This document shows, piece after piece, positions 1 to 52,317 of a DNA stretch of 64,000 bases (its first letter is position 1; every line of letters starts with the position of its first letter). The notes below the pieces were generated by a model that was not told where the DNA came from, did no database searches, and saw nothing but the letters and a program-made list of their open reading frames with translations. Source of the DNA: Hymenolepis diminuta (Eukaryota; Platyhelminthes; Cestoda; Cyclophyllidea; Hymenolepididae). The stretch spans positions 950,926 to 1,014,925 of the forward strand of contig CAADRB010000037.1 in assembly GCA_900708905.1 (NCBI GenBank), read 5' to 3'. The position numbers were made by a program, and so were the translations under genes.

Positions 1-162
1 ATTGAGTGTGAGTTTCGTGAATACACGCGTGTTGACTATAACGTGCCTTCTTATCTACCGTGGGTTATTAGCTTCTGTGTTAAGTTGCTATATTACCGAG
101 TATTCTAGATTGTTGACTCTGCTAGATTACTATCCGAACTCCTAGTTGATTACGTTATAGCA
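1..162 (+). mobile_element. LTR family 1, copy A (3' part, cut by window edge)
   Basis: This stretch matches the second half of the complete copies at 7502-7796 and 26478-26769 almost base for base and ends in the same GTTATAGCA. The 5' end lies outside the window, so the target duplication cannot be checked. It is very close to the 26.5 kb copy, which suggests fairly recent activity. No internal retroelement coding sequence follows it. Confidence 0.85.
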
Positions 163-5879: not shown

Positions 5880-7501
5880 AAATACGTGATCCGTGTATAG
5901 TTAAAGTAGCAAAATTATATCTAAAGTTGACAGAGGGTAATCATAAATCTTGAACGATGCAGTAGTGTCGCTGCCAATGAAAACCAATTTTAAACTCATA
6001 GTAATCCTACCAATTAATGAAAAAATCGCCTAGTAAATTAAACTGATATTAATTTAACAAATTTCTAATGCAAGCAAATGATAAAATTTTTTACTTACCA
6101 TGTGCAAATTTTGCACAAAACACGGAATACTAAATACCGAGTATTTCACCAATCAAGAAAAAGTTTTGGCAATTTCCGCCAAATGCCAAACCAATTATTT
6201 TGTAACTGGTTTTTAGATGAATTTGTATTCCATTTATTAATTTAATATTAAATACCGTACTGTAACAGACTCATTTTTGATACTTTTTGATTAAATAAAT
6301 CTAAGGATAAATTCATGTTTTCTTGTGATAAACAGAATTACGGGACATTTCTTGAAATCTGATATGAAAAACTGAGTCACTAATCTGTCCTCTTCTCAGA
6401 ACTTTGTTCAGTATTCTTAATTTTCAAAATTTGTTTTATTAGTAAGAAATGTAACGGATACTTTATAAATAAACTCTTGGCCATACCTTAGTAATACTCT
6501 TAGAAGTCTAACTAGCTGCGTATAAGTACAACTAGGCCCTATCAGAGTCCTCTGGTATATTCTGCACCCAAAATTAGCTAGCTTGTGTCCAAAGTAGCGA
6601 GAACACAAGAGGTATTGTGTGGAAAGAGTTTTATTGCAAAATGCTTAGTAACTGAGTGCAATTAACGCTACGCTACATGAGTACTGACCAGCTGGAAGGT
6701 CTCTTCATGCATAAGCATTCGGCAGAACGCCTCACTTTCCAGAATGTTCTGGCGCGCGCAGGATACCTTTGGCCGGCGTTGGTAGAGTCGTACACTCCAC
6801 AGACGACAATGCTTTATGCAAACTTATATGATTTAAGTGATTTAGGCATCTTATAATCAGATTAATTCACATTATCACCCTTCACTATCTGTAATAATGA
6901 GATTATTTTGCCATTGAAGTGAGATTTATTTACACATTATATGACATATTCTTCTGCATTTTGATTAGATCTTTCCATTTTTACTATTAGGTCTTTTTGG
7001 ATTTCACATTTTGCCAGGATGCGAGCCTGCAAATTTTGCATTTTTTTCTCGAAATTATCGGAATCCCTTAGAGAAGACTTATATCAATGATCGCGCAGTA
7101 ACAAAAAATGCGAACATTTAAATTGAAAAGTCCGACTAAGGATAAGAAGCTGCAATCCTACGATTTAATGTAAATATAACTTAGATTAACGTTAAGATAT
7201 ATACTGTAATCGAAATAAAATTTCTTCTTCACTGCAATTAAGAATAATGCAAATAATGTTGATATTCGCTATCACGGCCAAGTATCATATTGTTTTATAT
7301 TAACTTCAACATACCAGCAGTTAAACAACGAAAGGTACGATGAATTTGTTGAATGTTTCTCAATTATTGAAGTGTATTTTGAAATTTTGAAAAATATCAC
7401 TGATTTGTCAATCGTGGAATTTAAATTAGCTATACATCTGCACCGCAAAACTACTTTAGAATCCCAACCAAGTTAGGCTTAAAGTTACTCTTATATGAAA
7501 C
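5880..7501. other. Intergenic, no gene seen
   Basis: AT-rich DNA with only short open stretches. I see no splice-bounded exon, known domain or RNA gene. It separates the MCM8 start region from the LTR cluster. Confidence 0.5.
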
Positions 7502-7796
7502 TGTTGGAAGAAATAATAATTATTTTCTCCTGCTCCCAATACTTCTTCTATGAATAAAATTGTAATTTCTTTATTTATTTCCCCATCGACAAAAGACACT
7601 TAATAATTGTACTTATTTGTTTAAGCCGGTACCGAATGAGACGGAGTTCCGTTAATACACTCGTGTTGACTATAACGTGTCTTGTGATCTGCTGTGGGTT
7701 ATTAGCTTCTGTGTTAAGTAACTGTATTATCGAGCACTCTAGATTGTTGGCTCTGTGAGATTACTACCAGAACTCCTAGTTGTCTACTTTATAGCA
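7502..7796 (+). mobile_element. LTR family 1, copy B: complete solo LTR with target duplication
   Basis: A 295-bp element beginning TGTTGGAAGAAAT and ending TTTATAGCA, so it has the TG...CA ends of an LTR. It is flanked by the perfect direct repeat GAAAC at 7497-7501 and 7797-7801. It aligns over its whole length with 26478-26769 and 25543-25836. With no partner LTR and no retroelement coding sequence next to it, it is a solo LTR. It is more diverged than copies A and D. Confidence 0.9.
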
Positions 7797-8249
7797 GAAA
7801 CCAACGACCTTTCCAAGGTGGGTAAGGGAACAATAGTTTCAAGTGTTGAATCAGTTGATCAATTGGACCACCCTAAAAGCCAAGGAGAGTTGAACGTAGA
7901 ATTATCAATCAAAAGGGCAGAGAATAAGTGTCAGCAGGGAATGTGTGTAAGTAGGTTGTGATAGAGAGTCAAATTGCGATAAGCTAAGTTGAATTAACTG
8001 TTTTATAAGTTCCCAAAGTCTCATAAGCAACCAATAAAAATAATCATCTGATATGAGTCAGTGTGTAAATTCGGTAGAATTCTATGATTCTCTTGAATAG
8101 TCGAATTATCAACGATTCCGCCTTGTGATTTTGAAGAGTCAGTAAAAGACGTAGCCGGATATATCCTCTTATAAAAATTTAGAATAATATTCAATTCCCT
8201 GATGAAAATAATGCAAAATGAAGTGGTTCACAATGTTCACAGTCGACAT

Positions 8250-8381
8250 ACATAACTAAATCATGTTGTACTTGTTACCATCTGCTCTTCTCCGTAGGAT
8301 ACCATAACCAACTCTTAGGTTCCCTAAGACATTGCATTAGTTACAAACACGACCCGACAACATCACAATACAAAGCGATCC
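8250..8381 (+). repeat. Dispersed repeat F, left part (split by LTR family 2)
   Basis: Matches 26100-26290 and 52318-52490 through the blocks CTCTTCTCCGTAGGATACC and ACAACATCACAATACA. The match breaks at 8381, where the family-2 LTR begins, and resumes at 8713. Its class is not recognised: no coding capacity and no clear terminal repeats. Confidence 0.7.
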
Positions 8382-8712
8382 TGTAATAACATTGAGTCTA
8401 TCGGAGCTACATCGCTCGAATCGATAGAACAGATCAAGTCACTCATGTCGTCAGATCAGTTCGGAGGTGGCAGGCAAGCCACCTCAATTTATTAATTAGT
8501 AAATTAAGTTTATATACAAAACATTTCTCTGTTAGACGTCAGTCATGTCTCGTTGTCGGAATCTCGGCGTGATTACAGACACCCCCTTAGGTATCTATGT
8601 ACAAACACGCAAACACACAGCGGGACCGCCTGTGGACACTGTAGTGGAGATATTATCGCCAGTCAATCATTTCTAATCGTCAGGTGTTGATAGACATCTG
8701 CTGGCTATAGCA
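8382..8712 (+). mobile_element. LTR family 2, solo copy inserted into repeat F
   Basis: A 331-bp element beginning TGTAATAACATTGAG and ending GGCTATAGCA. It is nearly colinear with 51794-52114. The flanks GATCC (8377-8381) and GACCC (8713-8717) form a 5-bp target duplication with one mismatch. They lie exactly where repeat F is interrupted, so F was there first. Confidence 0.85.
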
Positions 8713-8795
8713 GACCCAACCAGTAAGACGCATATTTTCGTATCAATAGGTCAATTCATATTATGCGCCTTAATCCATCAATTATAAACGGAGAA
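8713..8795 (+). repeat. Dispersed repeat F, right part
   Basis: Continues the homology broken at 8381: AAGACGCATATTTTCGTATC and the following GGTCAATT block match 52400-52460 and 26215-26250. Similarity fades near 8795, a little upstream of the end of the drebrin-like gene. Confidence 0.6.
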
Positions 8796-8920
8796 ATACG
8801 AGCACTTAACATTATTTATTTTCATATAGTAAGTGTTTCATTATTCAAAATGGATTTCATATGAATAAATATCACAGGGGTGCTTAATAAATAATTCCAG
8901 AAATTGGTGTCAATCGCCTC

Positions 8921-11239
8921 TCAATCGAACAAATCTTTCGCCTCATCTTCGTACAGCTCCACATAGGACTTTGGAAAGCGACCGGACTTGCCTTTTTTCG
9001 TAGTTCCCCAAAGCCATTCATCGTCGAATTTACAAATATTCGTTATACGATCACCAGGCCGAATGGTGATTTCGTCGTCCAGTGCTGATACAAAAAATTA
9101 TTTTTCTAATAATTTCATCATGGTAAAAATATGACTTTTCCTTCCAACTACCTTTTTCGAATCGGAAAATACAAATTCCGATGAAATCGTAGCGACCATC
9201 CACTTCAATATCGAAATTTTCTGTTGAAGATGATGCGGTAGATGTAATAACATTTGTTCCATCTGCTTGCACACCATACTGTAAGAAAAGTCAACAAATT
9301 ACCTTTAAAATGTTTTTATAACTTTAATAATCAAATTAATAAATTCAATTCGATATTTATATTTAAGATTTAATAATAAATTACAGAGTTTGTAGAAATT
9401 TTGCATTCGGTGGACGAGGATGCTGCCTGAAAGTGACAAAAAATTCTCAGTATTTTAGATAAACATATCCATTCTAAACGGAGGAGCAAAAAAATCAAGG
9501 AACGAACCACACAGATTTTTAGTTCAACTTTAGCTTTATCACTTTGATGTGAAAAGAACGATATATAGTTTAAATCATTAAATGGGCAACAACAATGGAC
9601 AATTTTAAACGTAAATGTGTTTTGCAACAAGTAAGTTATGCCGTGTCAGGCTTGTCAATTGTAATCTGATATGACTCCCTTGGTAAGCACGCCGACGTGA
9701 GTGCGTCTTAGAAATCCTATGCAATGTAATTATACAGACACCTATTTATGCCAAAAGAAACAAACGAGGAGGTATGCACTTTTAGTGGAATTTCGTTAAA
9801 ATTAGCACAAAGAATAGTCAATTATGTATCAAAAACGGGATTATAAAATATCAAAGAGTGTGCAGTAACACATCTTAGAGTGAGTGGATGGAAAATCGAC
9901 TAAAATTGAAACATACCGATTTAGAAACACTTTTAGAAAGTTTTGAACTTTTTACAGACGCCTAAAATTAAAATAAATGAATTAACCAGGGAATTTTAAT
10001 GACAATGAATTAAGTTATTTGCTAACAATCTCCTTGGCATCTTTCTGTTCAAGATAATCTGGCATATTTCTATTTGCAATATCGGACCTGAAATCCGGTT
10101 GTTCATAGTTCGATCCCTAAAAAAAGGCCTTAAAAAGAGAAAAGCAAAATTGAATAAATAAGTGTAAAAAGAAATAAATCGAACTCGTATTGGATCAATC
10201 GGATCGCGGGGCACAGCACGAGCCGCTTCTAACTCTTCCCTAAAATTTAGCGGTACATAGGAGGAGTTCTAAAATGTTATACAAAATTTCTAAGAGTTTG
10301 AATCATGTTTCCACATTGTAATCATTTTAATATGGCGACCTACACTTTTTTGTTCATAAAGAGCTTTGATTCGTGCGGCTACGATACCCTTCATTATATC
10401 GGTGGAATTTGATGAAGACTTTGTATTCCCGGTAACGAATTCGTCACAATTTAATGAATTTTCATCACATGGCTAATAGAGAAAATGGAAACAAAATGAG
10501 TTAGAAATATATCGTTCTTACTTTATGACTGAAAACCGTTATTTAAAAATGGCTGACAATGATTAATTAAACTACTGTCATCGGACTACCTTGTTATAGC
10601 TCCCACCAAAAATTCGGTTACTTATATCCACCCAATTAACATCACTTTTTTCCCGTGCAGTCATTCTCAGATGAATAGTCTAAAATACAATATCAGACCA
10701 AACGATTATTAAACGAGAAATATATAGAGGAAAAGAAAAAATTTAAAAAAGTAAAGATTTAAAAAGGTGAGGTGAAAATAATTAAATACGAAAAATATTA
10801 TATATTAATAATTATTAAACCATCAGAATAAAATTGAAAATAGCAAACAAATTGATTTACCTTATATAATTTGGTTATTTGTTCGCTATTCTTAATATGC
10901 TGAATGATCTCCTTTCTTAGGGATGATGATCCTAACTAAATAATAGTTATAAGGAATTTCCATCACTACCCAAATAATATAAGCATATTTCGAAACTAAG
11001 GCTGACTCGTTAGAAAATTTTGCATATCCATATAAAATATCTGACGGCTTTACGTGATTCAGCATTTCTTCAATATCATCCCCAGAAGATTTGACTACGA
11101 TTGTATTTGTTGTACCGGAATATCCCAGCCAACACCTTTAAATATTCCACGTACATAAAGCTTACCATGACTTAGAGCCCTTTTCAATGGCTCGGATTGT
11201 GTTCTTTATTTCGTTCGCATTAGTAGACAAATCCAGCAT
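8921..11239 (-). CDS. DBNL: Drebrin-like protein (DBNL/Abp1): ADF-H domain plus C-terminal SH3
   Basis: Actin-binding adaptor of the drebrin-like/Abp1 family, which links F-actin to endocytic and membrane-trafficking partners. Exon 1 (11166-11239) starts MLDLSTNANEIKNTIRAI. Exon 2 (about 10970-11135) carries the ADF-H core WLGYSGTTNTIVVK and DILYGYAKF. Later exons near 10.86-10.94 and 10.62-10.68 kb (IHLRMTAREKSDVNWVD) complete the ADF-H domain, aligning with the VTINAR...EDVDP part of Abp1. The middle exons (about 10.47-9.15 kb) are charged linker. The last two exons make an SH3 domain: YDFIG, then DDEITIRPGDRI, EWLWGTT and FPKSYVELYEDE, ending in TGA at 8921-8923. The start has no in-frame stop just above it, so it rests on family alignment. 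Domain order is as in the family; the linker appears short. Middle exon borders are approximate. Confidence 0.82.
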
Positions 11240-11613
11240 AATAAGAACTATTACTTAAAATTGCGCCAAATAATATCGTCCTTGAAGTTGGACCGATAAA
11301 AATATCTTCCAACAAAATTAATTAGACATTTAGCATAATTTTCTAAGGTAATGAAAATTGTTTTTAATTCTTCATGGTTAATAAAACTACTTTTACAGAC
11401 AGCTTTAAACACATTTGTTTATCCTGAAGCACTAACATATAAAGAACGAAGCACTCAGAACCCGACCCACCCAGAGCAAACAAAAACGCACCCAAAGTCA
11501 CAGAAAAGGACCCTACTCTCGACCGCCACTGATTTATTTACAACCAACATTCAAATATAATAATAAACAGTATCTACATGAAGCATTCAACGCAAAAGCT
11601 AAAAAATATTTAT
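11240..11613. other. Short intergenic gap between two same-strand genes
   Basis: About 375 bp separate the ZC3H14 stop from the drebrin-like start on the minus strand. It should hold the ZC3H14 3' end and the promoter of the drebrin-like gene. No specific site was identified. Confidence 0.5.
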
Positions 11614-14600
11614 TTAAGTGGTGATAACTTCAGCAGATTGTGCAAGAGCAGGTTCATCGACACCAAGAGTAGAAGCCCCTGATACTCCAGGGGGATTAGT
11701 CAGATTACGATTTGTAGAAGACCTTCCCGGAGCAACCCACTTGAGCTTATTAACTGACGGCATAACTGTGGGTGTTGGGTGAACAAATAGGCAAGTTGTG
11801 CCACGATTTAAGCAGGCAGCGCCGAATCGACAAGGCGGCATTGAAGTAGGGTGAAAATAGGGACAGGCTCCCGGTGGCATTTTGCAGTGAGGATAATAAC
11901 GGCAGATGGTTTTCGGGGTCGGTGGCGTAGAAACCACATCAACTGAAAAGAGGAAAATAATTTTAACATTCATAACGAGGGAAAAAATGCATCCTTACAT
12001 TCCCTTGTCGGATGTTTCATAAATTGACGTAAGGATTCATATCAAAGGAAGGTATCACTAAGATACTTATTGAATTTTGAACGGTTTTTATGGATAAAAA
12101 GGTATAATGCAGATAACATAATCAGTGACATTGTACTTTATATTGCGGTTAATATGCAACAAAAATCCTGCACTATGGAAAAGAATATAATCGCATTCAA
12201 TCACTTTCGGCAAATACACTTCAGCACAATTGCTCTTTCTAAGAGCCAGATTAGAATTAATCTTGAGAGAACTCTACCTCTTTTCCATAACAAAAAAGAC
12301 CGCAAATTCCCTTTACCTTGCTGTGGGTAATGTAATGTGTAAGAAATGTAATATAAGGGGCGCTGACCAAATGACATTTAATTTATCCAAAGAAATAGCC
12401 AAACCCTGCCACCTTATGAAATCACTATAGACTATAGCAAAAACACTTAACGGGACTAAGCTAAGGGAAAAAATTAATAAACCAATTCACGAATAGCCTT
12501 AACACGGTGCTTTATGGTAGTGATTTAAAACTAATAACAAAAGAGAACACATCATCTACAAACAGCAATAATCCAGTAAAACTTACGTTTGTTTATTCGT
12601 TAGCATATTTAACGAGACAGAGTAAGAATATATCAACTATTACTTGAACAATTCGTGCAAATGTAACGCATAAGTTGATAAAGGTGAGCATTTTATGATG
12701 CTTCGTAAACCAACAGTCTAGAGTAAAATGAGACCAGTACAATCCAAGTTCACTTGACTGTGAAATTAATGATGACAATGTGAGCGGTTTACCAAAATAT
12801 TAATGTAACAACTACCTCCAGATTCAGAGTCTATTTTTTGGAAATCAAAAGTATCAATAAAATGTTTCCGAGGGAGAGGAAAGTTATCCTAGATCTCTGA
12901 TAAGGGACACCTCAAATAAATGCTTTTATGGACCTATATTAACCAATGAATCCGACAGGTCTTAAACGAACAATTCACCTAGCGATATGTACTAACTGGA
13001 TGAGAGAATCAATCTGCAGAATCGTGAATTCAGAACAAACACTGAGGACAAGTCTTTACAAGGAAAGTAGTTCAGGAGCACAAATTGTCTTGAAATCTAA
13101 AATATCGAAAAATAGAAGGATCTTAAAACTACTCCCAAAAATGTTGCCTAAGAGAGCAATCTGATCTTTGAACTGGCGTTTGGTGTAAGCATTGCTGAAA
13201 ATGAGCCCTAATTAAGAACTACGTGAAAAGGGAAATATTCGAATTGGTCCTTCAGTACCCTTGACTTTTAATTAAAAAATATTGGAAGACAAACTACAAT
13301 GAGTCCAAAAAAACGGTATACTCCTCTATCCTGTTACAATACATATGCGATAGATATCCCAAAATCACAAATAGGATAGTGATATGAATATGAAGGAAAC
13401 CAACTGAAATAATGTAAAAATAGGATTTCCTGACTTCAAGAGTAGACACAAATTCTTCTCAATCTTTCTTAACGAGACTACCGCTCAAAGATGAAAAAAA
13501 ATAGCAAATTTATCTCCTCTGTCATGAGGAATACTAATGTACTTGTTTATTGCGTTAAGTAGAATAGTGGTTTACCTTGTTTCAAAGGATGCGTGAAAGC
13601 ACAGTCGGGACGTGAACACTGAGAACCATAGCGACAAGGTGGATGAATATAAAGGCAGCGGGTGCCGTATCTGCAGTTAGGAAATGATTTGCATTCCTCT
13701 TTGGGGTGAAAGAACTCACAACTATCCAGATTGCGACAGTTTGGCCAATACTTGCAACGCTGAAGCGTGCTATAAAAACAACTGTTAGTAAAACGAAAGT
13801 CATAAAGACACACAAAATACAAATTTAATCAGTTCACCTTGGAACGCTATTCCGATCAGTCTTTCTAGCATCTGATACACTTTCGTCAGTAATTTTACTA
13901 GCAGCATCGCCGATATCCTCATTGACCGTTTTTCTAGCAAGTAAAATAGATCTCGCATCGGTTATCTCTGGAGGAGTGTCGAAGTTATCATGGATGACAA
14001 CTCGCGGTCCTAGACGGGATTTTACGCTCGGTTTTAATCCCACGAGGGCTTCGTCATTCATGGTAACTACAAATTTTGTCATTTTCTTAGGAATTTCAGA
14101 TTCGTCTGAGTCTAACGAACTGGTATTTTGGGTTAGCGGAACAACCACCTTCCTATAAAAGTAACGAAAATATAACGGTAGAAATAAAAAAAAAGAGTAA
14201 AAAACATCACAATAGCACTTACTTGTCCAACGACCGTCTGAGCTTTCTCTTAGACGCTAGTCTTTCCTGATTTTGGATTTCATTATTTTTGACATCCTTC
14301 ATAGCTTGTTTTAACAACTTTCCCCCAGCAATTGGGAGATTCGGTTTTACTGAACTGGTGGCAGACGGAACAGACGCCGACTTCTTACTTGAAACCTGAA
14401 ATCCACAATAAAATATTCAGTCACAACATAAAAGCGCAACGGTAAAGTTATTAGCGACTTACTTTAACAACTGAACGAATTGTAGGCTTTTCATCCGATG
14501 ATCTTCGTGTGCCATTATCCTTCAAGCTTGAGGTAGCTACAACACGCCGTTGCTCTTTCGGTTCCGACTCAGATTTATTTTCCGCCGATAATTCATCTCT

Positions 14601-15014
14601 AAATTCATCTAAAAATATGCATAACCACAAAATCATTGACCCACCTTCCTCAGTTTGAAAATTTAAAACATCTTCAACCATTTGTACATCGAAAGGCGAC
14701 TTTCGAGATGGGGCGGGGGAACGAGATACCTTTCTCGATGACGATCCAGTGCGCGATGATTTCCTGGATTTGCTTTTTTTACTCATTTCCTGGGACTTAG
14801 AACTAATCAGATCGTGAAGCCATTCCGTGAAGTGATCTGTATCATCTCCCAGGAAAAGCTGTAAATCTTTTTTCATACTGCTCCTCTTTTTCTTATTAGC
14901 GACCATAACGGTAATGTAGTCGGGGAGTTCCTCATCCCCGAATGCATCTAGTTCGATTAATTTATTTTTAATCTGATCTTTAATTTGGGACAAAAACTCT
15001 TGATTGTATGCCAT
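11614..15014 (-). CDS. ZC3H14: ZC3H14/Nab2-like poly(A)-binding CCCH zinc-finger protein
   Basis: Homologue of ZC3H14 (Nab2 in yeast), a nuclear protein that binds poly(A) and limits tail length. The N terminus from 15014 matches the PWI-like Nab2 domain (DEELPDYITVMVANKK, then DLQLFLGDDTDHFTEWLHDL). Next come Ser/Arg-rich linkers (SKKSKSRKSSRTGSSSRK) and charged exons at about 14451, 14220-14400 and 13834-14148. Five CCCH fingers end the protein: CKYWPNC, CKSFPNC and CRYGSQC in an exon ending at 13576, and CRYYPHC and CRFGAAC in the last exon (11614-11942). Five fingers and the LKWV motif after the last one are as in animals. A 1633-nt intron (11943-13575) divides the finger array. The intron at 14609-14644 is 36 nt and keeps the frame open if retained. 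An ATG four codons upstream (15026) is also possible, but MAYNQEF fits the family better. Confidence 0.9.
11943..13575 (-). other. Large ZC3H14 intron, no nested gene seen
   Basis: This 1.6-kb intron lies between CCCH fingers 3 and 4. It holds several short open stretches on both strands. None has a recognisable domain or convincing splice borders, so I treat it as intron. Confidence 0.55.
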
Positions 15015-15026
15015 GATAAAATACAA

Positions 15027-15660
15027 AGCGCAACGGCTACGAGACCAATTTTTTCCTATTATCTACTCAGCAAATTTTGAATTTTAATACATTAAAATAA
15101 CGGTATGGAATCAAGCATACTGGCATATTAACGTGTAAAAAATTGATTATATATAAAATATATTTATTTAAAATCATTATTGGAACTGATACATTAATTA
15201 TGCAACCAAAACTGCAAAAAATTATGCTCACAAAATTTAAACATCGGTTAGGCTGGCGAGTGCCTTATTCAGCCTATTAACAATTATAATTCATTAATCT
15301 TCAAAAATTGATATCCGGTAGTATGGTAAATTGCAGATATAACTCTGAGATACGCAATCATAATTTCACACTTGCTTTACTTCTTCCTTTTACAGTTTAG
15401 CTGCATTAATTGTTCGTATTTTTGTTTTTTTCACACATCTATTCACACATATTCATACAAACATTGGTTAATACATGTTCCAAACTTCTGTAATAACGGA
15501 AAAATTTTTTAGTACACCAGATATTCGTCGGGTAACTATATTTGCATTTCGCGATAGGTAAAATAATTTGCATATAAGAACTTTATTTGCATGCTTTATT
15601 CTTTGCAACTTTAGAACTTGTTACCACTTGTACGTTTTTTTGAGTTAAGTTACGCCTGGA
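15027..15660. other. ZC3H14 upstream region
   Basis: AT-rich DNA upstream of the ZC3H14 start. It is expected to include promoter and 5' UTR. I see no TATA box or other motif I would defend. Confidence 0.4.
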
Positions 15661-15670
15661 AGAGAGCTTA

Positions 15671-15868
15671 AAAATCTTTCTGGTTTCGTTGTTCAAGCAG
15701 CCATTTGTTGAGACTTTCTTTTTTTAAAATATCTTGCGCATTCTGAATTGGGAATATCAATTTGGTTTTGCAACATATGCCCGCATAAGAAGAAAATATT
15801 GTGGGACTTAGAGAACACATCCAGCATGAAGCTTCCCATTTTTTAATATGGAATGACCCGTCGTGCAT
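15671..15868 (-). CDS. Unassigned open stretch, possible terminal exon
   Basis: A minus-strand reading of about 66 codons that ends in the plausible hydrophilic tail LKKESLNKWLLEQRNQKDF. It contains several cysteines (SCWMCSLS, GICC). The frame stays open about 17 codons upstream of the first ATG, to a TGA. I do not recognise a family. It could be a small gene, the last exon of a gene whose other exons I missed, or chance. No function is proposed. Confidence 0.2.
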
Positions 15869-15949
15869 TAAAAGCGAAAAAAAGTTGCACAGTATAATCT
15901 AGTGTATATTCATGTAAATACGACGATTATCCACATTTCCCGCCTTGGA

Positions 15950-18900
15950 TGAAGATTTCGATTAGATTTCTCGAGTCTCTCGAAAGTGTACCAAATACCC
16001 GAATCTCCGAACCTAAATATTCAAGTATCAGTTCGAAGTTTGTATTTTTTCAGTTGCATGCGCATTTTCTGAATATACCCATTTCCGCTTCGCTCCATTC
16101 AATCCATGATGCATGTTTTCAAAACCGTCTTCGTCTCTGGTTTTGTCTGTCTATGAGACTATGTCGATTTGGCATAATGTAAAAACTAAGTATGTCATGC
16201 AATCTCGATTTTTGACAGGTTATTTTTAAAGAAAAACTCATTCGTCTTTACTGTTTACAGAAAATTAATGTTGGGGCGGCTACAGTGAAGAATTCTTAAT
16301 TTGGAATTAGAGGCCGAGTTCTTATCGCAGCTACTACACAAAGGTCAATATGTGACAATTAAGTCATGCCAAGACACAGTGAGAAAATTTGCTTTATTAG
16401 GTCAGATGCATTTACTGAATTCCAAAATATTGAAAATACTTTTTGGTCCATTACAGGTAATTAAGAATCGGAAAGAAATCTAAGACAGATCATACAAGTT
16501 TGGGGAAGAGATTTTCGATCAAATGAGATCATATTTGTTGGCAATTCTGACCAATCATGCAATGGTGGAAAAAGCACTTGCTTCATGGATTAATTATAAT
16601 AATTTTACGCTGGGTTATATCAGAAGAAAAAGATTGTAAAAAACTACCTCAATCTGGGTTCAAAATCATCGTAATAACAACTTCAAATGGCCCTGACATC
16701 TCGTTAAGTCACTAAGCTAGTTATCACTTCAGTTTTAACGACTCGTACGATTTGTCGCGTTTCTTCATTTCCCACAGCAATTTTATTATTTCTTTTACGA
16801 CTTTGGCGATTTTACTTTCTTCACATCCCTCCTCATGACTCAAACAACTACGCGGATGAAATGATGTGCTCTTCCTCAAAGTCTTCTCCACCACGCCACG
16901 ACCCATACAATGATGCATTTGAGTCATTCTCTTGCATTCTTATGCTTTCTCTCCTCCCTCCTATAATTATGCAGTGAGTTTTTCACTAGAGAGAGAGGGC
17001 ATTCTGTACACTTACTCTTCTTCTCTGGGCTTTTTGGGTTGTCTAAGTAAAAAATCAAAGTGCTTAAGGCAAAGGATAAAGTGGCTATACTCTTAGACTT
17101 GAGTTGTAGCTGGTGATGTCAATTCCTGTGTAGATCGAGATACGAGGAGAGAGAGGAGATCGGAATATTGACGATGGAGACGTCTAAGGATGAGGAGTTT
17201 GAGGACTGTGGAGACATCTTAAAATCGACTTAACTAGTAATTGACATTAAAAACCCGCTATGCCTATCACAATCTCATCAAATTCGCTGGACTTGTTGAA
17301 AATCAGGAGAGCTACATTCTCGAAGAGTAGTTGAACTAAGTCTTGCACTATTCCATCGAAAGTGTCCTAAATATAATAAATCGTAATTCTAGATACCTTT
17401 TGCATTCGCTTATCAATTAAGATCATTTCCATACCCAATTATTGCTGAAAGCTTCAAAGACAAAGATAAATAAAGACAAGAATATCAATATCCTCTAAAT
17501 ATGCATTAAAAATAGGCTAATCACCATTCAGATTTCTTCTTTTTGGGGGTTGATTAAGAAGATATTTCATTTTGCTTCTGATAAGGACACGAAGCAATAC
17601 TTTACTGTGCAAGTACGAATGCACACCACGATCGGTCAGTATCACATCATCGGTGTGAAATCGCTAGGTCGCCATTAAGGTAGGTCACAGATCACAACAT
17701 CTATCGATTGGCAAATTGTCTTATCAATCATATTTTGTCACAATAAGCAACCAACATCTGTGATTGGTTCAACTTTCTCCGACAAATTACAACTCAATAT
17801 AGAGATATAAATAGTTTGTAAATTATGTAAATGTGTGGTCTTGAAGTGAAAACGGTTCTATCTTCTCTCTGGGTTCTTAGTAATTTTGCACTATGAAAGT
17901 GGCGTCAGAGTCTTTATTTCATAAAACAATCTAATCTTAAGAATGCAAGTAGATGCAATTCCGTTATGTTAAGATGAAGCCCTTTACATACCGAAAGATT
18001 ATTCCTATTGATACTGGCAGACATCCGCCCATATTCAAAATCAGAAAACTTGGGGTTAAGTGAAAGCGAAAAGTGTATTGTACATCAGCAAAGAAAGCGG
18101 GAGAGTAGAGAAAAATAGAGTAATGATAAAAGAGCTAAGTAAAATGACAGTTTAAAAATGAAGTGTGAGTCAAAACGTGTTGTAAGCCACGAAGTACGCT
18201 GCTACTGAAGAATTAGAAATAGACTAAGCACAAAACTTCTCCAACGAGTAAGGAAGATGACAGACAAATGAAGTAGTATGGGCACTAAGTGGACTAATCA
18301 GATGTTTGAACTCCAGATGTACACATCAGATATAGGACAGACGTGAGTGGTCATTATGCCAATATGGTGGCTTCCACTCATCTTTGTATTCTTTCATGCT
18401 TCTTGATCCCCACTCCTAAGTGTTCTACTCCTGTTGATCCTTGTTGCCTTTCATCATATATTGGATTATCTATAAGTGGTCCTCAATAAATACTTATTTC
18501 GATCACTCTTTCTTCACCGTCCTTTCCCCACCTTCCCCAGTTCTTTTGAGAATTATGCAGAGAGCTCATCCTTCAAGCGTATTGGAAGTCTTAATAATTC
18601 ACTGGCAGTACTTGGATAATATAGTACATAGAGATTGGCCAGAATAGAACAGGAATGGAGTAATAGCGGAATGTGTGAAGGTACCATCCACAGGCATGCA
18701 TGTATGTTGGCGGGGTCCTCGCCAGTACAAACTTCAGAGGATTCTATATGAGTAACAGAATTCAAACCACAGGCGAGAATACAGACAGCACCTGACGAAC
18801 AAAAATACTCCAATCAATTATAAAGGTCCGTAAAAGGATTATTTAGTTTTATCGGTGGCTAAATTCATATACCACTTCTGAAAAATACTAAATTCTCTTG

Positions 18901-19690
18901 TCTCTTTTTTCTCCATTTTTGTTCTATGTGCAATATCCTTCATATTTGGTCTATTAAATAAATTTCAGTCATTCTTTTGAAATGAGGATATGCTGCGAAT
19001 CCTAGGATACATTAGTTATCATTAGAATCAATAAGTTTTCGAGAGTTCTTGTTATTCAATTTCCTACAATGCGTAGTAGTACGCCACGCAGTTCCACAAT
19101 TCTTGTGGTCAAATAGATAAAATTTCCCTCTGATTAAAATGTTCTCCACCTGTACTCACGCAAATTATCTCTAAAATTGCAATGAACTAATCCACGTCCA
19201 TTCAATTCAGAGAATCGATAAAGATCATGACTTCATCCAAGAACGCTAGAAGCGTCCCCGTTGCCAACGCCCTAATTTTTTCTTTGTGTTCTCGGACCAT
19301 CTCTGAAATTAAGAGGACATTCCTTCCCCTAATATGAATAACCTTTTACTTACGCACCTGACAAGACCCATTAAACTTCACAGTCGCCCTCAACTGAATC
19401 TGCTCTCGACTCCAGCAATCACTGCACCAGCCAATCTCTCAGACTACTCTACCTCTCCTCGGTCCGCCTGCTTCTCACGTCTAAGTTTTATTTGTTAATA
19501 AACCTGTCGGTTGCAATTATAGCCTCTCTCTCTATCCTTTTTCCATTTTCTAGATGTTCTATACTTAAAACATGCTGTTATGCCTCGCAAGTAGAGGCTC
19601 AAACCCTTGTCCACTTTTATTAGTACATTCTTTGTGATGCGCTGCAATTTAGTATAGATTTTGCTCAAATAAGCTCGTAGTTTTTAGGTT
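15950..19690. other. Long gene-poor stretch
   Basis: Almost 4 kb with only short open stretches. There is a purine-rich patch at about 17.1-17.2 kb (repeated GAGGAGAGAG) and pyrimidine-rich patches near 18.4-18.55 kb. No gene, RNA gene or transposon could be assigned. Confidence 0.45.
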
Positions 19691-19717
19691 AGTATTTATA
19701 ATTTAATTTAACTGCAG

Positions 19718-19870
19718 TATGCTTCTTTATCCAAGATGGCTTCAACGGTCTCCTGAATTTGTGCCGAATGGTATCGATGCCGCTCCACAAAGGTTGTCAC
19801 AGAAAACGAAAACTTCTTAGGAAGTATTGATACAAGATAAGTAGTAAACTGTTCAGCATGACACTTTATT
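19718..19870 (-). CDS. Orphan exon-like reading, family unknown
   Basis: A minus-strand reading of about 50-60 codons with strongly protein-like composition: an amphipathic piece (AIDNQIKCHAEQFTTYLV), then FVERHRYHSAQIQETVEAIL, ending in a stop soon after KEAYCS. The likely acceptor is the AG before AIDNQ. It may be the last exon of the gene at 20-24.7 kb on the same strand, or of another gene. I do not recognise the domain. Confidence 0.3.
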
Positions 19871-20184
19871 TGATTATCAATGGCTTCAGTTAATTTAAAA
19901 GGAATTGGAAATTGAGTTTACTACGCAAAACAACGAAATGTTATGTCAACTAAACGCGAAGAGGATAAGAAGCGATGAAAATGGCGCGAATAAACAGAAA
20001 TCAAATATTTAAGGCGAGAAGATGGAAGAAGCGGAGGAAATGCAATGCAGAAAAATATGACTTTAAGAGAATTATTTTAATAGTGAGCGAGAGGGTAGCC
20101 GGTGAGAAAGTGGAGAGAAATTGTCTAAGCATGCATGGCAGAGAATTTTGCAATCAGACCCCTAGCCTGGCCCTGACTCGGAAG

Positions 20185-23100
20185 ATGTTCGCTTGGCTCT
20201 ATCGAGGTTCTGAAATAAAACATTTAAAGGTAAACAGTTTATCTGAAGAAATAAGAGTATTTCATAAATATCAAGCAAACTTGCCTTGGCTTTGGAGGTT
20301 GTTGCTCCTCGGTAATGCCGGCCAAAAACTTTGCAGCTATTGATTTAGCTGTATTAGGAGGGTACATAGGTGAAGAATCCGATTGTGCCGACTGAAAACA
20401 ACAATGCTACTTAATTAATATCAGTAGATCCACTCAATTCAACTTTATGGGACAACATATTGGGCCGTCACATGTAACGATGACTCAAAAAATCATCCAT
20501 AAATCAGGGGGACAAAGACCGCGCATCTGAAGTCACATTGGACCTCACCAATATTCGCTTTGTGCTTACTTCAAACTCACAAAATTTTCGCATAAATTCA
20601 GGAAATAAAAAGCGGCAGCCTTCAAAAAAAGGGAATTTACTTATCACACTTTTGTGAATGTTTAACAGTAAAGAATTTTCAAATGAATTTAAGAAAACTT
20701 CATGTAAGTGGATTAGGAGGGATAGAACTAGCCTAGTGGCCACTAATGCGAGCATTACTCATCTGGACCACAATGCCCATTTGTTAAGCGAACAAAGGAC
20801 ATTCATCCATTTCTGTTTTCACAACTGTACTGTCATTTGCATACACACATTCTCTGTGTCCTACCCTCGCCAAGCGACGCTTAAGAGTACTAAAGATGAG
20901 ATTTAAGACTTTGGACATCCCAGATAACTTTAGAGTTCTACAGCTATTGAAGCAAAGGATGAAAAATACAGAGAATGCTTTGAGCTTGATATTTAGAGCT
21001 AATCATAAAAAGCGACTACTAATATATCTCCCTCTGAATAGAGCACAGAATTTTCAAACCCACTTGGAGAATATGGTTTATTCAAAGCTAAAGGAGCAAC
21101 GGTAATGCCCGCATTTTATCTAGCCGAAAATCCAGCGATTGGAAGATTCGATCAGTAATGGATTTACGGAATATGCCTTCCCTATTAGAGCAGCCTTACT
21201 TTGTCTGAGATGAGCTTCAATTGGCCTGAGGATAAACACGCTTTTAAATACCAATTCATCTGCTGAAAGATGTCACTGATTTAATCCTCAAATTAATTCT
21301 GCACTCCGATATGAAAGAAACTAAGTGCCAGGTATCGAAAGGGAACTTTTAAATAAACAATCCACTGTCACAGCGAAATCTGATTAAGAAAATTCTTATA
21401 TAATCATAACCCTAGCTCAGCCACGTTAAACTGAAAGAGAACGTAAGGTCTGTTGCCGAAATAACGCTGCTTAGATAAAGTCTGCAGAATCTCGACTGAT
21501 TTTTTGGTATTACTCAACAAACTCCCAGTTTGGCTGCAATTGCCATAAAAGGGCGAGACGAGAGAGTATGAGAGCGCGCACGACCAAGGTTGTCGCTTTC
21601 TGACCAATCAGGAGAGGAATCAATGACTATTCACGCGTGCATCCAAACTCTCGAGGGTGTAGGAAAACAATGCGTCATACATTTCACGTTGATGGCTTAC
21701 ATTTGTAGTAGACGCACTGATTTTAAGAGCTTCAATGTTGCTCCATTGCTCCACTAGACGCTTAGCAGATCCCGTCGGTGGAAGAATATCATCAACACGA
21801 AGTGTCTCTTCCTCATGCTGCAGCTCCTAGACAAAAATGAGAGAGTGAGAGTAGCCAAATTGGGGATATGATTTGCACATGCTTTTTGTATCAACCTTGC
21901 CATTCGATATGCACTCCTTTTTCTCCTTCTCCATGGATTTCGGGGATTCCGATTCTAACTTTTCGTCCTCATGCTTCACTGTGGGCACATGAATCGCCTC
22001 CTCTTTTGCTAAAATAAATTAGACACATGATTACGACCGTGTGTATGTAAACGAGATGAGTCATTAAGACTTGTAGAGGGTCAGCAGGTGTTCCAGTTTT
22101 CTGAAACCCTTCCCAGCTTATGAATAAAATCGTTTGTTGCGTTAAATTCATTCTCGCTTTGTTTACCACTGACAATTAGTTGTGTATGTGCGTATACGTA
22201 AAATTGATGACAAATGACAATTGTACTTACGAATGTCCGCAGATGAGCGATTGTCACAATGGGGATTGCAGGATGGCTGGTCTTCGTTCACTTTATAGTC
22301 TTCATTCCTGAAGGAGATGTAGGTGGTTAGTCACAGAAATGTCAGGATATCTGGGATTGGGGGAGAGAAGAGGAATGACTCATACTTAATTAAGTCTACC
22401 AGCTTTGTGACTAATGTTTAAAGTGTGCCTACCACTAAAGTAGGGGAAAAGAGGGGAAACAAACAGAGGATGAGGAAAGGAAATTCAGGCCATTATCTCG
22501 AGAGATTTCAAACTCCAAATCATCACTAATGTGAAAACAAATAATAAAACATTGAGATATCCTGGTTCATGACCTACGAGACAAGTTCTTTTCTACTTTG
22601 ATTAAACAGAATTAATTTAGAGTGAACTCTGTGTTTTTAAAAATATCCTGGCTATCACCAATTTGCCACTATTGGCTATTAGAAATGATAGATACACCGA
22701 TCAATTCAATCAGCTTGTCAATTTCACGAACATGAGCCCACTCTCAAGCAGGAGCATAGAGGTCAACTCTTGAAATTTGGCTTATGAAACACATTCAACC
22801 ATATCCATCAAGAAGTGAGCAAAATGACTGATAGTAAAATGCAAAACAAGGAAAAACTTTCTAATGCTTTAATGTTATTCTCTCTATCTACCTCTTTTAG
22901 ATTCTTATAAAACTATTTTACTGTTACTCGAGTAACGGTGATCTTATATGAGAAAAACCAGCAAGTTATCATGCTTTATCATAGACGCTAATAACAAATG
23001 GGATATTTTTAGATAAAACATGGCATATTCTTTGTATTTGTAAAGGAAACAAATGAATTAGGCGGGAAATTTCGAAGAAAGTTAAAGTCGGGAGCCCCAT

Positions 23101-24657
23101 TGTGAATCACAAAGACAAAGCGAGACTGAGAGTCAACTTACGAAATGGGACTGTCGCAGTGAGCGCAAAGGAAGCAATTTACATTAGAGTGTGACGGCGA
23201 CGAAGAGAAGCCGTTTATTTTCTTCTCACCCGAAATAATTAATTCACCACATTTGAGACACTTCATACATTCTTGTTCTTCTTCCTTTTCCGCATCATCC
23301 ACTTCCACCGACTTTGCATTGTAAACCTAGAGAAAGTGAGATTGAAAAAAAGAATAGAAACGAGACTACGCAAAGGGTTAAATGAGAAGTGAACAGCTAA
23401 TGAGCCCATGTTTCTAAAAACAACTCTACTCTAGAGTCGGCAATCACTAAAAACCATTAGTGAAAGGAAGCTTAGCTACCAAACACTAAAACAGAGCAGA
23501 CAACTCCGAAATTCTCACTTCAAACATAAGATCTCCGTCAGCTAAAAGAGTAATAAATACAAGTTACATCACTGCTACTTAACTAAAATGGGCAAATAGA
23601 TTATTGAATATTCTCCCATTCGCTATTTACGTGTACTTTTTCCCAGAAGAGAAAAACTTACATTATCAGAAGGGACTTCAGAAGCTTCAACAGAAGGCTG
23701 GGATTTATCAGCACCAGTAGGCATAGTTTCATCAACCTGGAATAAAAAAATCAAGATTTAGCACTGTTAATAATATATAGAACAAGGAAATTTGTGATAG
23801 ACTTACTACAGGGGAGGAAGTATCGTTAATTTTCTTAGGTTCTTCATAGTCACTCTCTTCAGATACACTTAAATTCTCAGCCCTTTTCACTGTTAGCTAG
23901 GAGGGAAGTAAACAAAGCAAGATGGGTGAAAAGTGACTTGAATAAAAGACGTTCGAACTCAAGTGAAAGTCAGGAATGCTAAGAGGAACCATAATCCTGA
24001 GAGTTGCATTCATTTTTGGAATCTTGAGAAAATTATAAGAATTGCATGAATAATTAAACAGAAATAATTAAAATTGAATTGCACAAGAGAGGAATAGACC
24101 ACTATAGGGGTATATTATATAGACAAGGGTTATTTGATCAATCAAACAAGACGAAACAAGGTCAAGTCTAAAACTGCGAGAAATGCAATGTCATATTTGG
24201 TGACAGTTAAAAAAGGTCAAGTAGAAATACACATTTTGATCAGAATATTTTAGGCAAATTAATACAAAACACAACGTACTTTATTCGTGGAGTAGTTCTC
24301 GTTTTTCTGTTCAGAGGTATCCACCTCGGAATCAACATGTGTATCGAGTTCTTCGCCAAGTTCTCCATTTTTTTGCTCTTCTTCACTTTCGATATTCTCC
24401 GCTATGAGTAAAAAATACAACAATTTTCGCATCGAATACTGATAAGTAATCAATTAGGGCGAACTTACATTCATCAGAACTATGTCTCTTTTGAGTCAAA
24501 TTTACCGGGAGGCTGACATGTTGCTGCAATTAGGATAAATGTGTGTAAAACAACAAGAGAAAAGGATGTAAATCGATGCAGACAGAAAAAAATAAAACAT
24601 TGTTAACTCTAATAAACTTACCTGAACTGCAGATATGTCTTCACCAGATTGTTCCAT
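20185..24657 (-). CDS. Acidic LIM-domain protein (LIMA1/EPLIN-like, tentative)
   Basis: A many-exon minus-strand gene starting at MEQSGEDISAVQ (24657, donor at about 24621). The N-terminal exons are highly acidic (ESEEEQKNGELGEELD; SVSEESDYEEPKK). A LIM-like zinc module is split between exons ending at 23142 (CLKCGELI...CFLCAHC) and starting near 22308 (DYKVNEDQPSCNPHC). The second half has the LIM spacing C-x2-C-x17-C-x2-H. Later exons carry EKEKECISNGK, then PPTGSAKRLVEQWSNIE (about 21.75 kb) and PPNTAKSIAAKFLAGI (about 20.35 kb), two related copies of a short PP-x-AK motif. A possible last exon near 20.18-20.21 kb ends SSESGPG. A single LIM domain in an acidic protein suggests an actin-associated EPLIN-like adaptor; this is inference. 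The number and order of the small exons are approximate. Confidence 0.55.
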
Positions 24658-24659
24658 GG

Positions 24660-25222
24660 TTATATAATCTAGAGGTACAAAAATTAAGAATACCTACATT
24701 ACTAAAATATATAAAAATACAATACATAATCAGTTTCAAATAAAACACAAATTAAATGGAGAAACATGAAGGCAGAGGCGGGAGCAGAATAGGACAAATA
24801 AAAATGCAACTCACACACACCTCGACACTACGCGACAAAGAAGAATAAATTCAAACAGCCACCGCCTGTAGGGTTTAAATTAACAAACCAAAGAGCGGAT
24901 ATAAGTACATGAACATCATATTTGTAAAAATAAGGTTTCTTATCATATTTTGACTCAAATAATAATTGATTTAATTTAAAAATTTTCTATTTTCAAATTT
25001 CTTTGTTTTGAAAAAACCACTAGTTAAATATTTAATTGGTGTGTATTTCATTTGAATTGTTGCTGCAAAATAACTTTAACTGATTATTGACAAATATAAT
25101 TAATATAGTTATCGAATATATACATTAGATGCTTTTCGCCAAGACCACACCTCATGGATCCGTGTGTTTGCATACAGATACGCAAATGCAAATCAATTTG
25201 CGAAGACCTAGATGACGAGACA
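24660..25222. other. Upstream flank of the LIM gene, no gene seen
   Basis: AT-rich DNA between the LIM gene start and the repeat nest. Expected to contain its promoter; no motif identified. Confidence 0.4.
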
Positions 25223-25429
25223 TCAGTGACAAAGAAACTTTTTATGTGAACGTAATTTATTCGTCAATAAGTGTGGATAGCTTCCCGACGCTCTCCGAAT
25301 TGACCAACTAATATATGTGAATTGACTTATTTCTTCTATGCGGCCTCTGTCAACAGCATCATCGTTACAGGACCAAAGTAGTAGATAATGTACCGCTATT
25401 TGATAATCACTGAAAATCTTGATCGTCAA
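25223..25429 (-). pseudogene. Possible Ty3/gypsy RNase H remnant
   Basis: A short minus-strand reading contains IFSDYQIAVHYLL followed by VDRGRIEEISQFT. This resembles the end of the RNase H domain of gypsy-type retrotransposons, where a TDH-type motif is followed by arginine-rich sequence and ISQFTTDI. The match is short and frames outside it are not open, so it would be a decayed fragment. It directly abuts a family-2 LTR copy on the opposite strand. Confidence 0.3.
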
Positions 25430-25965
25430 CGGTAATAACTAAGCTCACCATTTATCTCAATTTTTATCAATATTTCACTAATTTTATTAGTTAGTCCGCG
25501 ACCGGGAAGCCTCTCCAATTTATTGATAAGTAAATCAGGTTTTGGTATAATGTAACCAAATAGAAGTCCTGGTAGCAATCTCGCAGAGCCAACAATCTAG
25601 CATACTCCGTAATATAGCAACTTAACACAGAAGCTAATAACCCACGGTAGATCACAAGACATGCCACAGTCAACACTCATGTATTAATGAAACTCACTCT
25701 CAATCAACGTCGGCTTAAACAAAGAAGTATAATTATCAAGTGTCTTTTATCGGTGTGGAAATAAAGAAAGAAATTCCATTTTTATTCACGGAAGAAATAT
25801 TGGGAGAGGGGAAAATAACTATCATTTCTTCTAACAGGTTTACATACAATAGATTTGTTCGTTAGACGTCAGTCACATCTCGGCGTGATGACTGTCACCT
25901 GTTGAGGTATCTATGTACAAACACGCACACGTACAACTGGACTCCTCATGGATACCGTAGTATGT
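25430..25965 (+). mobile_element. LTR family 2, old copy split by LTR copy C
   Basis: Left part (about 25430-25542) aligns with the first half of 8382-8712, through CAATTTATTGATAAGTAAAT. The right part (from 25837) resumes with TTAGACGTCAGTCACATCTC and GTATCTATGTACAAACACGC and fades near 25965. The break coincides exactly with family-1 copy C and its target duplication. The copy is more diverged than those at 8.4 and 51.8 kb and its 3' end is lost. Confidence 0.7.
25543..25836 (-). mobile_element. LTR family 1, copy C: complete solo LTR, nested
   Basis: A 294-bp inverted copy of family 1. On the plus strand it begins TGGTATAATG and ends ATTTCTTCTAACA. It is bounded by the perfect 5-bp repeat GGTTT at 25538-25542 and 25837-25841. 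Removing it and one GGTTT restores a continuous family-2 sequence, so it inserted into that older element. Confidence 0.9.
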
Positions 25966-26094
25966 TCTTGTATGTAGTGTTAGCATTTAATTTGGTTCAC
26001 AGAATCTTTTATATCTGAACATCTGCTGTGAAAAAAGTGAAAGGTTTTGTTCTGAATAATGTAGATCAGATTACATCGTGCGGAAAGTGTCTTA

Positions 26095-26295
26095 ATCTAC
26101 TCTTCTCCATAGGATACTGTAACCGACTCTTAGATTACCTAAGACGTAGCACTACTTACAAACACGGCCTGTCAACACCATAATACAAAACCACCCAAAC
26201 CGCTACATCAACACAAGACAAGTTTTCGTATCGATAGATCTATTATATTACACGCCATTTACAACCGTAATGTAAACAAATTCGTTTGAATAAAA
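26095..26295 (+). repeat. Dispersed repeat F, second copy
   Basis: Shares CTCTTCTCCATAGGATACTG, GACGTAGCACTACTTACAAA and CCGTAATGTAAACAAATTCG with the other F copies (8250-8795 and 52318-52490). Unlike the 8 kb copy it is not interrupted. Confidence 0.7.
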
Positions 26296-26477
26296 GGGAA
26301 TTAAAAGGTGGCAAACAAAGAATCTTACATATAAAAATATTATTTATCCAATTTTGTTTATAAATATTAACTGTTGCAAATCTGCTACCAATACTTGTTG
26401 TATTGATAATTTTTACACAGGTACATATTATAGCTTGTAATTAAAATAGCTATATTCATGGTATGTGAGATTATTTG

Positions 26478-26769
26478 TGTTAGAAGAAATGATAATTATT
26501 TTACCCCGCTCCCAATATTTCTTCTATGAACAAAAATGTATTTTCTTTATTTCCCCACCGATGAAAGGCACTTGATAATTATTCGTATTTGTTTGAGCCG
26601 AAACCGATTGAGTGTGGAGTTTCGTTAATACACGCGTGTTGACTATAACGTGCCTTCTTATCTGCCATGGGTTATTAGCTTCTGTGTTAAATTGCTATAT
26701 TACCGAGTATTATAGATTGTTGGCTCTGCTAGATTACTATCCGAACTCCTAGTTGGTTACGTTATAGCA
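26478..26769 (+). mobile_element. LTR family 1, copy D: complete solo LTR with target duplication
   Basis: A 292-bp element from TGTTAGAAGAAATGATAATT to GTTATAGCA. It is flanked by the perfect 5-bp direct repeat ATTTG at 26473-26477 and 26770-26774. It lies about 640 bp from copy C in opposite orientation. Different target duplications show that C and D are separate insertions and not the two ends of one element. Confidence 0.93.
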
Positions 26770-26897
26770 ATTTGTCGTCAAAATGAAGTGACAGAGAGAA
26801 CGTTGTGACCTAGAAGGACGTGCTTTTGCATTCTTTTAAGACTAAGTTCCGGAAATGATTACTCAACAATCACGAATAATCGTTGACATAAAGTATG

Positions 26898-27025
26898 TGC
26901 TATAGCCAGCAGATGTCCATCAACACCAGGCGATTAGAAATGATTGACTCACTATAAGATCTCCACTACAGTGTCCACAGGCCGTCTCGCTGTGTGGTTG
27001 CGTGTTTGCAGATAGATACCTAAAC
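26898..27025 (-). mobile_element. LTR family 2, truncated inverted fragment
   Basis: Begins TGCTATAGCCAGCAGATGTC, the reverse complement of the family-2 3' end, and continues through ACAGTGTCCACAGG to about GATAGATACCTAA, where homology stops. Roughly the last third of the LTR is present. Confidence 0.75.
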
Positions 27026-27029
27026 AGAT

Positions 27030-51793: not shown

Positions 51794-52114
51794 TGTAATA
51801 ACGTTAAGTCTACCGGAGGCCTCATCGATGGAATAGATGGAATGAATCAAGTCACTCATGTCGTCAGATCAGTTCGGAGGTGGCAGGGAAGCCGCCACCT
51901 CAATTTATGAATTGGTAAATTAGGTTTATACACAAAACATTTCTTCGTTGGAGGTCAGTCATGTCTCGGCGTGATGATCGACACCCGTTTTGGTGTCTAT
52001 GTGCAAACACGCAAGCACACAGCGGGACCGCCTGTGGACACTGTGTTGGAAATCTTATCGCCAGTCAATCATTTCTAATCGCCGGGTGTTGATAGACATC
52101 TGCTGGCTATAGCA
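51794..52114 (+). mobile_element. LTR family 2: complete solo LTR with target duplication
   Basis: A 321-bp element from TGTAATAACGTTAAG to GGCTATAGCA, flanked by the perfect 5-bp repeat GCTTT (51789-51793 and 52115-52119). It matches 8382-8712 along its length. Shared blocks include TCATGTCGTCAGATCAGTTC and CGCCTGTGGACACTGT. No coding sequence and no partner LTR. Confidence 0.92.
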
Positions 52115-52317
52115 GCTTTAAGTGTCAACATGAAATAATAAAAACCACACGAAATGATCAATAACCACCGAGTGGTAAGTTTTAGCTATGGCCAAGCACA
52201 TTAATCTTCTCTATTAAACTATCTGATAAATAGAATGTGTACATTTTGTACGAATAGAAAATTACTCGGGGCACATATTGAGAGCGTATATATATACATA
52301 TATACTGGGAAAGTGTT

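Follow-up and report, generated by a model that had tools for sequence, protein, structure and literature searches.

We analysed a 64,000-nucleotide stretch of the Hymenolepis diminuta genome (the window), which contains three complete copies and part of a fourth of a long terminal repeat (LTR) of about 294 bp. Our best explanation, which we hold at a probability of roughly 0.9, is that these are solo LTRs of a Ty3/gypsy-type retrotransposon, and that the same family includes a subfamily that lacks reverse transcriptase (RT) and spread in trans. An initial annotation of the window had described solo LTRs with target site duplications (TSDs) and had suggested a very compact element, similar to a terminal-repeat retrotransposon in miniature (TRIM), with no visible autonomous parent; the solo LTRs stand, and the compact, parentless element does not. 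According to the proposed mechanism, RNA transcribed from the LTR would be primed by tRNA-Ser and copied by the element's own RT, the element's integrase would insert the copy with a 5-bp stagger favouring G first and C last, and recombination between the two LTRs would delete the interior and leave a solo LTR with its TSD. The RT-less group would spread on the RT of its RT-bearing relatives.

Solo LTRs and their target site duplications

The LTR copies of the window, and the copies of a dispersed repeat that one of them interrupts, are as follows.

1..162, + strand: 3' part of a fourth LTR, cut by the window start; 95% identity to the 26478 copy
7502..7796, + strand: solo LTR, 295 bp, TG...CA; TSD GAAAC at 7497-7501 and 7797-7801
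8410..8713, + strand: uninterrupted copy of the dispersed repeat; AGTTT where the filled site reads GGTTT
25480..25958, unstranded: dispersed repeat split by LTR 25543-25836; aligned with the LTR and one GGTTT omitted
25543..25836, - strand: solo LTR, 294 bp, inverted; TSD GGTTT at 25538-25542 and 25837-25841; within the dispersed repeat
26478..26769, + strand: solo LTR, 292 bp, TG...CA; TSD ATTTG at 26473-26477 and 26770-26774
51823..52115, + strand: uninterrupted copy of the dispersed repeat; single GGTTT at the site

All three complete LTRs share a TGTTRG start and a CA end, and the copies at 7502-7796 and 25543-25836 are each 83% identical to that at 26478-26769. Each is bounded by an exact TSD (GAAAC; GGTTT, read as AAACC in the orientation of the LTR; and ATTTG), confirming the coordinates, TG...CA ends and perfect 5-bp duplications that the initial annotation had assigned to them, and the fourth copy that it saw cut by the window start is indeed the 3' part of an LTR. 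Neither a primer-binding site (PBS) nor a polypurine tract (PPT) was found adjoining any window copy, and a comparison of the window with 14 pieces from interiors of the family (described below) matched only LTR sequence, in agreement with its remark that the copies lack coding sequence. The reading as solo LTRs with target duplications is thereby upheld. For LTR 25543-25836, the split repeat without the LTR and one GGTTT aligns across the junction with 8439-8645 (69.1%) and 51852-52044 (70.5%); the uninterrupted copies are an independent, though paralogous, empty site for this LTR. The dispersed repeat itself is ~300 bp long, is present in three window copies plus a shorter inverted piece at 26898-27037, and has no match in Rfam at gathering thresholds.

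The window's own assembly (170.6 Mb, 203 contigs) was searched for the family. A 22-base core of the LTR has at least 798 matches genome-wide at ≤3 mismatches, and the reversed-pattern control has none. From this core count 0.30 copies would be expected in 64 kb, where four are seen, a comparison that is not a fair test because the window was picked for its LTR copies. In the first LTR search 40 of 1162 candidates were scored, and TSDs were read for a set of 33 LTRs (the best 30, another two from the window and the second of the copies in L007), which leans to the younger subfamily of one window copy because the 30 were chosen by likeness to that copy. Outside this set are the copy in L014, with one TSD mismatch, and a partial copy in L006, with no duplication. 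A PBS or PPT adjoins six of the 33 LTRs: four follow TAAGAAGGGAGA, one follows TAAGAAGGGAGA with one change, and one precedes the PBS. The 27 single LTRs, including the three window copies, have an exact 5-bp TSD in 23 cases, one mismatch in two and two mismatches in two. The 23 include L013 and L019, in which the LTR start was placed two bases further out, and the number is otherwise 21. When, as a control, the left 5-mer of one locus was paired with the right 5-mer of another, 0/702 matched. The 5-bp duplications at single LTRs are therefore not due to chance (23/27 exact against 0/702 cross-pairs), and their presence at further loci had been named beforehand as a test of the solo-LTR reading. 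The duplicated bases are biased, with G first in 11/23 (binomial p 0.001) and C last in 14/23 (p 1e-5), forming a weak palindrome. TG...CA ends together with a short TSD of fixed length are as expected of a Ty3/gypsy LTR retrotransposon.

Full elements, their probable primer and their coding content

The initial annotation had proposed a genome search for LTR pairs with a PBS and a coding interior, and all three were found. The PPT (TAAGAAGGGAGA) followed by the LTR start occurs 73 times genome-wide (control 0), and the LTR end followed by the PBS occurs 52 times when ≤3 mismatches are allowed (control 13), including 29 cases with ≤2. Set against the 798 cores, these numbers point to a majority of single LTRs, although no ratio of single to paired LTRs can be given because the search patterns differ in sensitivity. 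We fetched the 1.5 kb upstream of 30 of the 73 PPT-LTR junctions, and 29 contained no LTR match; the exception, L056, has a fragment matching just the first 97 LTR bases. Twenty-two same-strand PBS-PPT pairs were found, whose interiors range from 1169 to 4056 bp. Ten interiors measure 2293-2592 bp, nine measure 3368-4056 bp, and the remaining three are 1169 (C154), 1896 and 2951 bp long. Four of the pairs, located at or near contig ends (C107:1495k, the start of C123 and both ends of C167), have the same interior length of 3387 bp and are likely duplicates from segmental duplication or redundant assembly.

The PBS lies just past the 5' LTR and the PPT just ahead of the 3' LTR, as in Ty3/gypsy elements. 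A tRNA-Ser(gct) gene ends in CTGCGTCG, and, since CCA is added to the 3' ends of tRNAs, its product would pair with the PBS (TGGCGACGCAG) over 11 bases, making tRNA-Ser(GCT) the likely primer. In some older copies, the PBS reads GACACAG, one base off. For L068 (101 bases), taken as a second tRNA candidate, no tRNA gene was found.

We compared the two LTRs of 18 of the 22 pairs, made up of C58 and 17 of 19 newly retrieved pairs, the remaining two of the 19 running off contig ends. Many of the 18 have partial or shortened 5' LTRs, and eight (C58, C88, C9, C8:1848k, C27, C3, C107:456k and C8:1333k) have near-full LTRs on both sides. The C58 element has an exact TSD (GTACT) and three differences in 295 between its LTRs (Kimura two-parameter distance, K2P, 0.010), and the C3 element has an exact TSD (AATTA) at an LTR K2P of 0.152. 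C88 (K2P 0.011), C9 (0.041) and C27 (0.068) each have a TSD with one mismatch.

The RVT_1 profile matched at least 150 places in the genome (the best 150 of 304 candidates). Eight of the nine pairs with long interiors, including the four likely duplicates, contain matches, and the other 13 pairs, at most six of which had readable interiors, contain none. Among ten pieces between stops, eight match domain profiles (Asp_protease_2/gag-asp_proteas, RVT_1, RT_RNaseH_2, Integrase_H2C2 and rve/rve_3) and two match nothing, and a CCHC-like stretch was read by eye ahead of the protease in L039. At one C3 locus, the order protease, RT, RNase H end, zinc-binding part, integrase could be read, partly from alignment and by eye: the protease by its likeness to L051 and L039, the RT from L108 (RVT_1), and the RNase H end and integrase from L058 (Integrase_H2C2). 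This is the protease-RT-RNase H-integrase order. When compared with solved structures, the RT piece matched best 4ol8, an RT/RNase H structure that we take to be that of Ty3 (E 4.9e-17), followed by the Ty3-G polyprotein 7q5b (E 3.1e-16), and the closest matches of the integrase piece include foamy-virus integrase 3l2q (4.7e-12), with Ty3-G at 3.6e-9. The 22 pairs, together with interiors that encode parts of a protease, RT, RNase H and integrase, contradict the statement that no autonomous parent is visible.

From its domain order and structure matches, the family appears to be a Ty3/gypsy-type retrotransposon. Within this group it is perhaps Mag-like, judging by integrase motifs such as HVDFAGP...YSKWPE and the Ser-tRNA primer. 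Its membership of the CsRn1 clade, whose elements use tRNA-Trp as the primer, is the most serious alternative, although we consider it improbable. In its favour, PMC12471100 names Saci2 and CsRn1 as the predominant clades among cyclophyllidean elements.

Copies lacking reverse transcriptase

In two of the interior pieces, L051 and L057, the protease runs directly into the RNase H end without a change of frame, and the integrase lacks its zinc-binding part. Alignment with undeleted copies shows two deletions. Deletion A, reckoned on the C3 copy, removes ~1.28 kb from just past the protease to the RNase H end, taking RT and RNase H. Deletion B, flanked by two direct repeats resembling CAGCAAGCG, removes ~0.25-0.28 kb with the zinc-binding domain of the integrase. 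Both deletions keep the frame, and the protease and the integrase core remain. Junction A was found at 13 places and junction B at 12, both at nine, giving 16 loci in total, while the undeleted forms were found at 24 (A) and 27 (B) places, likely duplicates included; all controls gave 0. The PBS or PPT is present at 11 of the 16 loci.

PBS and PPT (4 loci): C105, C1, C139, C8:1333k
PBS only (4 loci): C58:403k, C169, C61:2633k, C86
PPT only (3 loci): C84, C185, C5
Neither mark, within the mismatches allowed (5 loci)

C139, C105, C1 and C8:1333k carry the PBS, both junctions and the PPT in order, and in C139 the two junctions lie in one frame, with stops elsewhere in the copy. Stops or frameshifts are present in the RT-less copies that were read. 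The ten elements of 2.3-2.6 kb include three that are RT-less by sequence and seven that fit by length alone.

Some 5' ends in the family are also unusual. We examined 35 PBS-marked 5' ends (22 + 13), and four, L104 (C139), L116 (C86), L121 (C105) and L096 (C1), all with junction A, start at LTR base 215/216, while three (L102, L106 and L114) start at base 177. In two of the 35, no LTR match was found on the element's strand, one of them being C87 (L088), which has LTR bases 215-292 inverted beside the PBS. A match of L094 from base 215 is uninformative, as only 22 bases are left there before the contig end, and L113, L117, L119 and L136 gave no LTR match; L111 and L135 stand outside the set. 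C139 has a 77-bp 5' remnant and a full-length 3' LTR, whose last bases are TA rather than CA, with ATTTC on both sides as a 5-bp duplication. The two flanks of C169 differ at a single base, and at the other loci the duplication is poor or could not be read. C139, C86 and C1 have dissimilar 5' flanks, and that of C105 is partly unreadable. One reading of the recurrent 5' ends is that complementary DNA (cDNA) without the outer 5' LTR may have been integrated.

From the shared junctions, the marks around them and the unlike flanks, it is likely that the RT-less group was mobilised in trans by the RT of its RT-bearing relatives. In the integrase region of four RT-less copies, dN/dS is 0.37, against 0.74 and 0.88 in shifted frames; the contrast is not clean, however, because the undeleted copies give 0.49 against 0.57 and 1.08 in their shifted-frame controls. 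Recombination with coding copies could have carried the signal. The dS from RT-less copies to two undeleted copies (0.25) is similar to that among the RT-less copies themselves (0.28), which counts against a separate family. Because of these values, the possible recombination and the tree described below, our claim is limited to shared deletions and likely movement in trans, and does not extend to selection. An RT-less lineage with a selected Gag-protease-integrase polyprotein that borrowed RT from full-length relatives and formed a spreading family in its own right, whose cDNA was often short of the 5' LTR and started at 215/216, and whose integrase would have joined it to the target with a 5-bp TSD, is a tentative idea that we regard as somewhat doubtful.

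Several observations weigh against the explanation by a Ty3/gypsy-type element with an RT-less subfamily. Among the eight pairs with near-full LTRs, only C58 and C3 have an exact TSD, and the other six have one mismatch (three pairs) or two or three mismatches (three pairs): C8:1848k (K2P 0.053) and C107:456k (K2P 0.185) differ at three of the five flank bases and C8:1333k (K2P 0.268) at two of five. Several PBS-bearing copies have shortened 5' LTRs, an outcome not expected of simple LTR retrotransposition. The coding content of the youngest copies was read only from the C88 RT piece (LTR K2P 0.011). In a 12-row tree of the integrase region the RT-less copies do not form one clade, since all seven undeleted copies and two of the five RT-less ones group together at a node with 85% support. 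For the window's solo LTRs, LTR-LTR recombination is the likely source, but neither an allele nor a relative was seen to have the full element at any of these sites.

The tree, the stops and frameshifts, and the duplicated appearance of the four 3387-bp pairs at contig ends (though those four bear RT) would fit the idea that the RT-less copies are decayed relics, carried along by segmental duplications or arisen through independent losses of RT, that were never mobile without it. We find this hard to reconcile with the data and give it little credence, as the same two junctions recur at 13 and 12 loci, four loci retain the PBS, both junctions and the PPT in order, a 5-bp duplication (ATTTC) bounds C139, and the 5' flanks of C139, C86 and C1 are unlike one another, that of C105 being readable in part.

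Neighbouring features and comparison with known systems

Apart from the LTRs, the window contains a PWI domain gene piece at 14451-15062, Nab2-type zinc fingers at 11614-11994, which score under the curated cut-off, and a gene piece with the TTC7 N-terminus at 62985-63455. One window protein has 75% identity over 81 residues to a hypothetical protein of Hymenolepis weldensis, the one named match among three, which points to a hymenolepidid rather than a taeniid as the likely host.

No description of this LTR family turned up in searches of open-access papers. It resembles Ty3/gypsy elements (Metaviridae) in its PBS, PPT, protease-RT-RNase H-integrase order, short fixed TSD and solo LTRs. The passages of PMC12471100 concerned with cyclophyllidean tapeworms present lennie as the sole LTR retrotransposon characterised in them. 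Lennie and the Saci2 elements of cestodes are, like this family, Ty3/gypsy elements of tapeworms and mostly broken in cyclophyllideans, and the shared superfamily and host order would favour a lennie/Saci2-like element. This is nevertheless very unlikely, because their TSDs are mostly or only 4 bp and the PBS of lennie matches Leu-tRNA, according to the parts of PMC4558846 and PMC12471100 that cover them, whereas the TSD here is 5 bp in 23/23 exact cases and the PBS matches Ser-tRNA.

The ta-TRIM of taeniids is also an LTR element with many solo LTRs and 5-bp TSDs (5 bp in Taenia, 8/8 in T. solium), but its account in PMC4558846 gives LTRs of ~198 bp, a Leu-tRNA PBS and a non-coding interior of ~590 bp, and reports that it was not found in Hymenolepis microstoma. 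Here, in a comparison by description only, the LTR is ~294 bp, the PBS matches Ser-tRNA and the interior spans 1169-4056 bp. The initial annotation had rightly refrained from claiming identity with taeniid TRIMs, as the LTR, PBS and interior all differ. TRIMs of the Helenus/Ajax type, as outlined in the portion of PMC10886601 devoted to them, are LTR-bounded, have TSDs of 4-5 bp and contain tRNA- or 5S-like sequence in their LTRs, while the window has no Rfam match at gathering thresholds. The TRIM and ta-TRIM readings were both rejected on the coding interiors and the PBS. The idea of a TRIM that is mobilised by an unrelated retrotransposon can practically be set aside, TRIMs being short LTR elements, usually under ~1 kb, with no coding sequence: the window does have only short LTRs without adjoining coding sequence, and the C154 pair spans just 1169 bp, but the distance is 1896-4056 bp in the other 21 pairs, parts of a protease, RT, RNase H and integrase are encoded between PBS and PPT marks, so that the interior is neither non-coding nor small, and 29 of the 30 PPT-flanked loci read (of 73) have no LTR match within 1.5 kb upstream.

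The family described here has a primer tRNA and a TSD unlike those of lennie, and its coding order was read from sequence. It occurs in animals said to lack a canonical PIWI-interacting RNA pathway, as stated in the parts of PMC4558846 and PMC6880638 that touch on it. If the RT-less group moved in trans, it would provide an example from animals of an element that lost RT and kept the protease and integrase core, and, if true, this would open to testing what an LTR element can borrow and what it has to supply itself. A close parallel is the mouse intracisternal A particle (IAP) I-delta-1, an internal-deletion derivative that likewise keeps its LTRs and a fusion open reading frame and needs proteins in trans; in the RT-less group, too, LTR-bounded copies at different sites have in common deletions that preserve the frame. 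Unlike IAP I-delta-1, in which one 1.9-kb deletion takes part of gag and pol, the RT-less group has two deletions, one of RT and RNase H and one of the zinc-binding domain of the integrase, and retains the protease and the integrase core.

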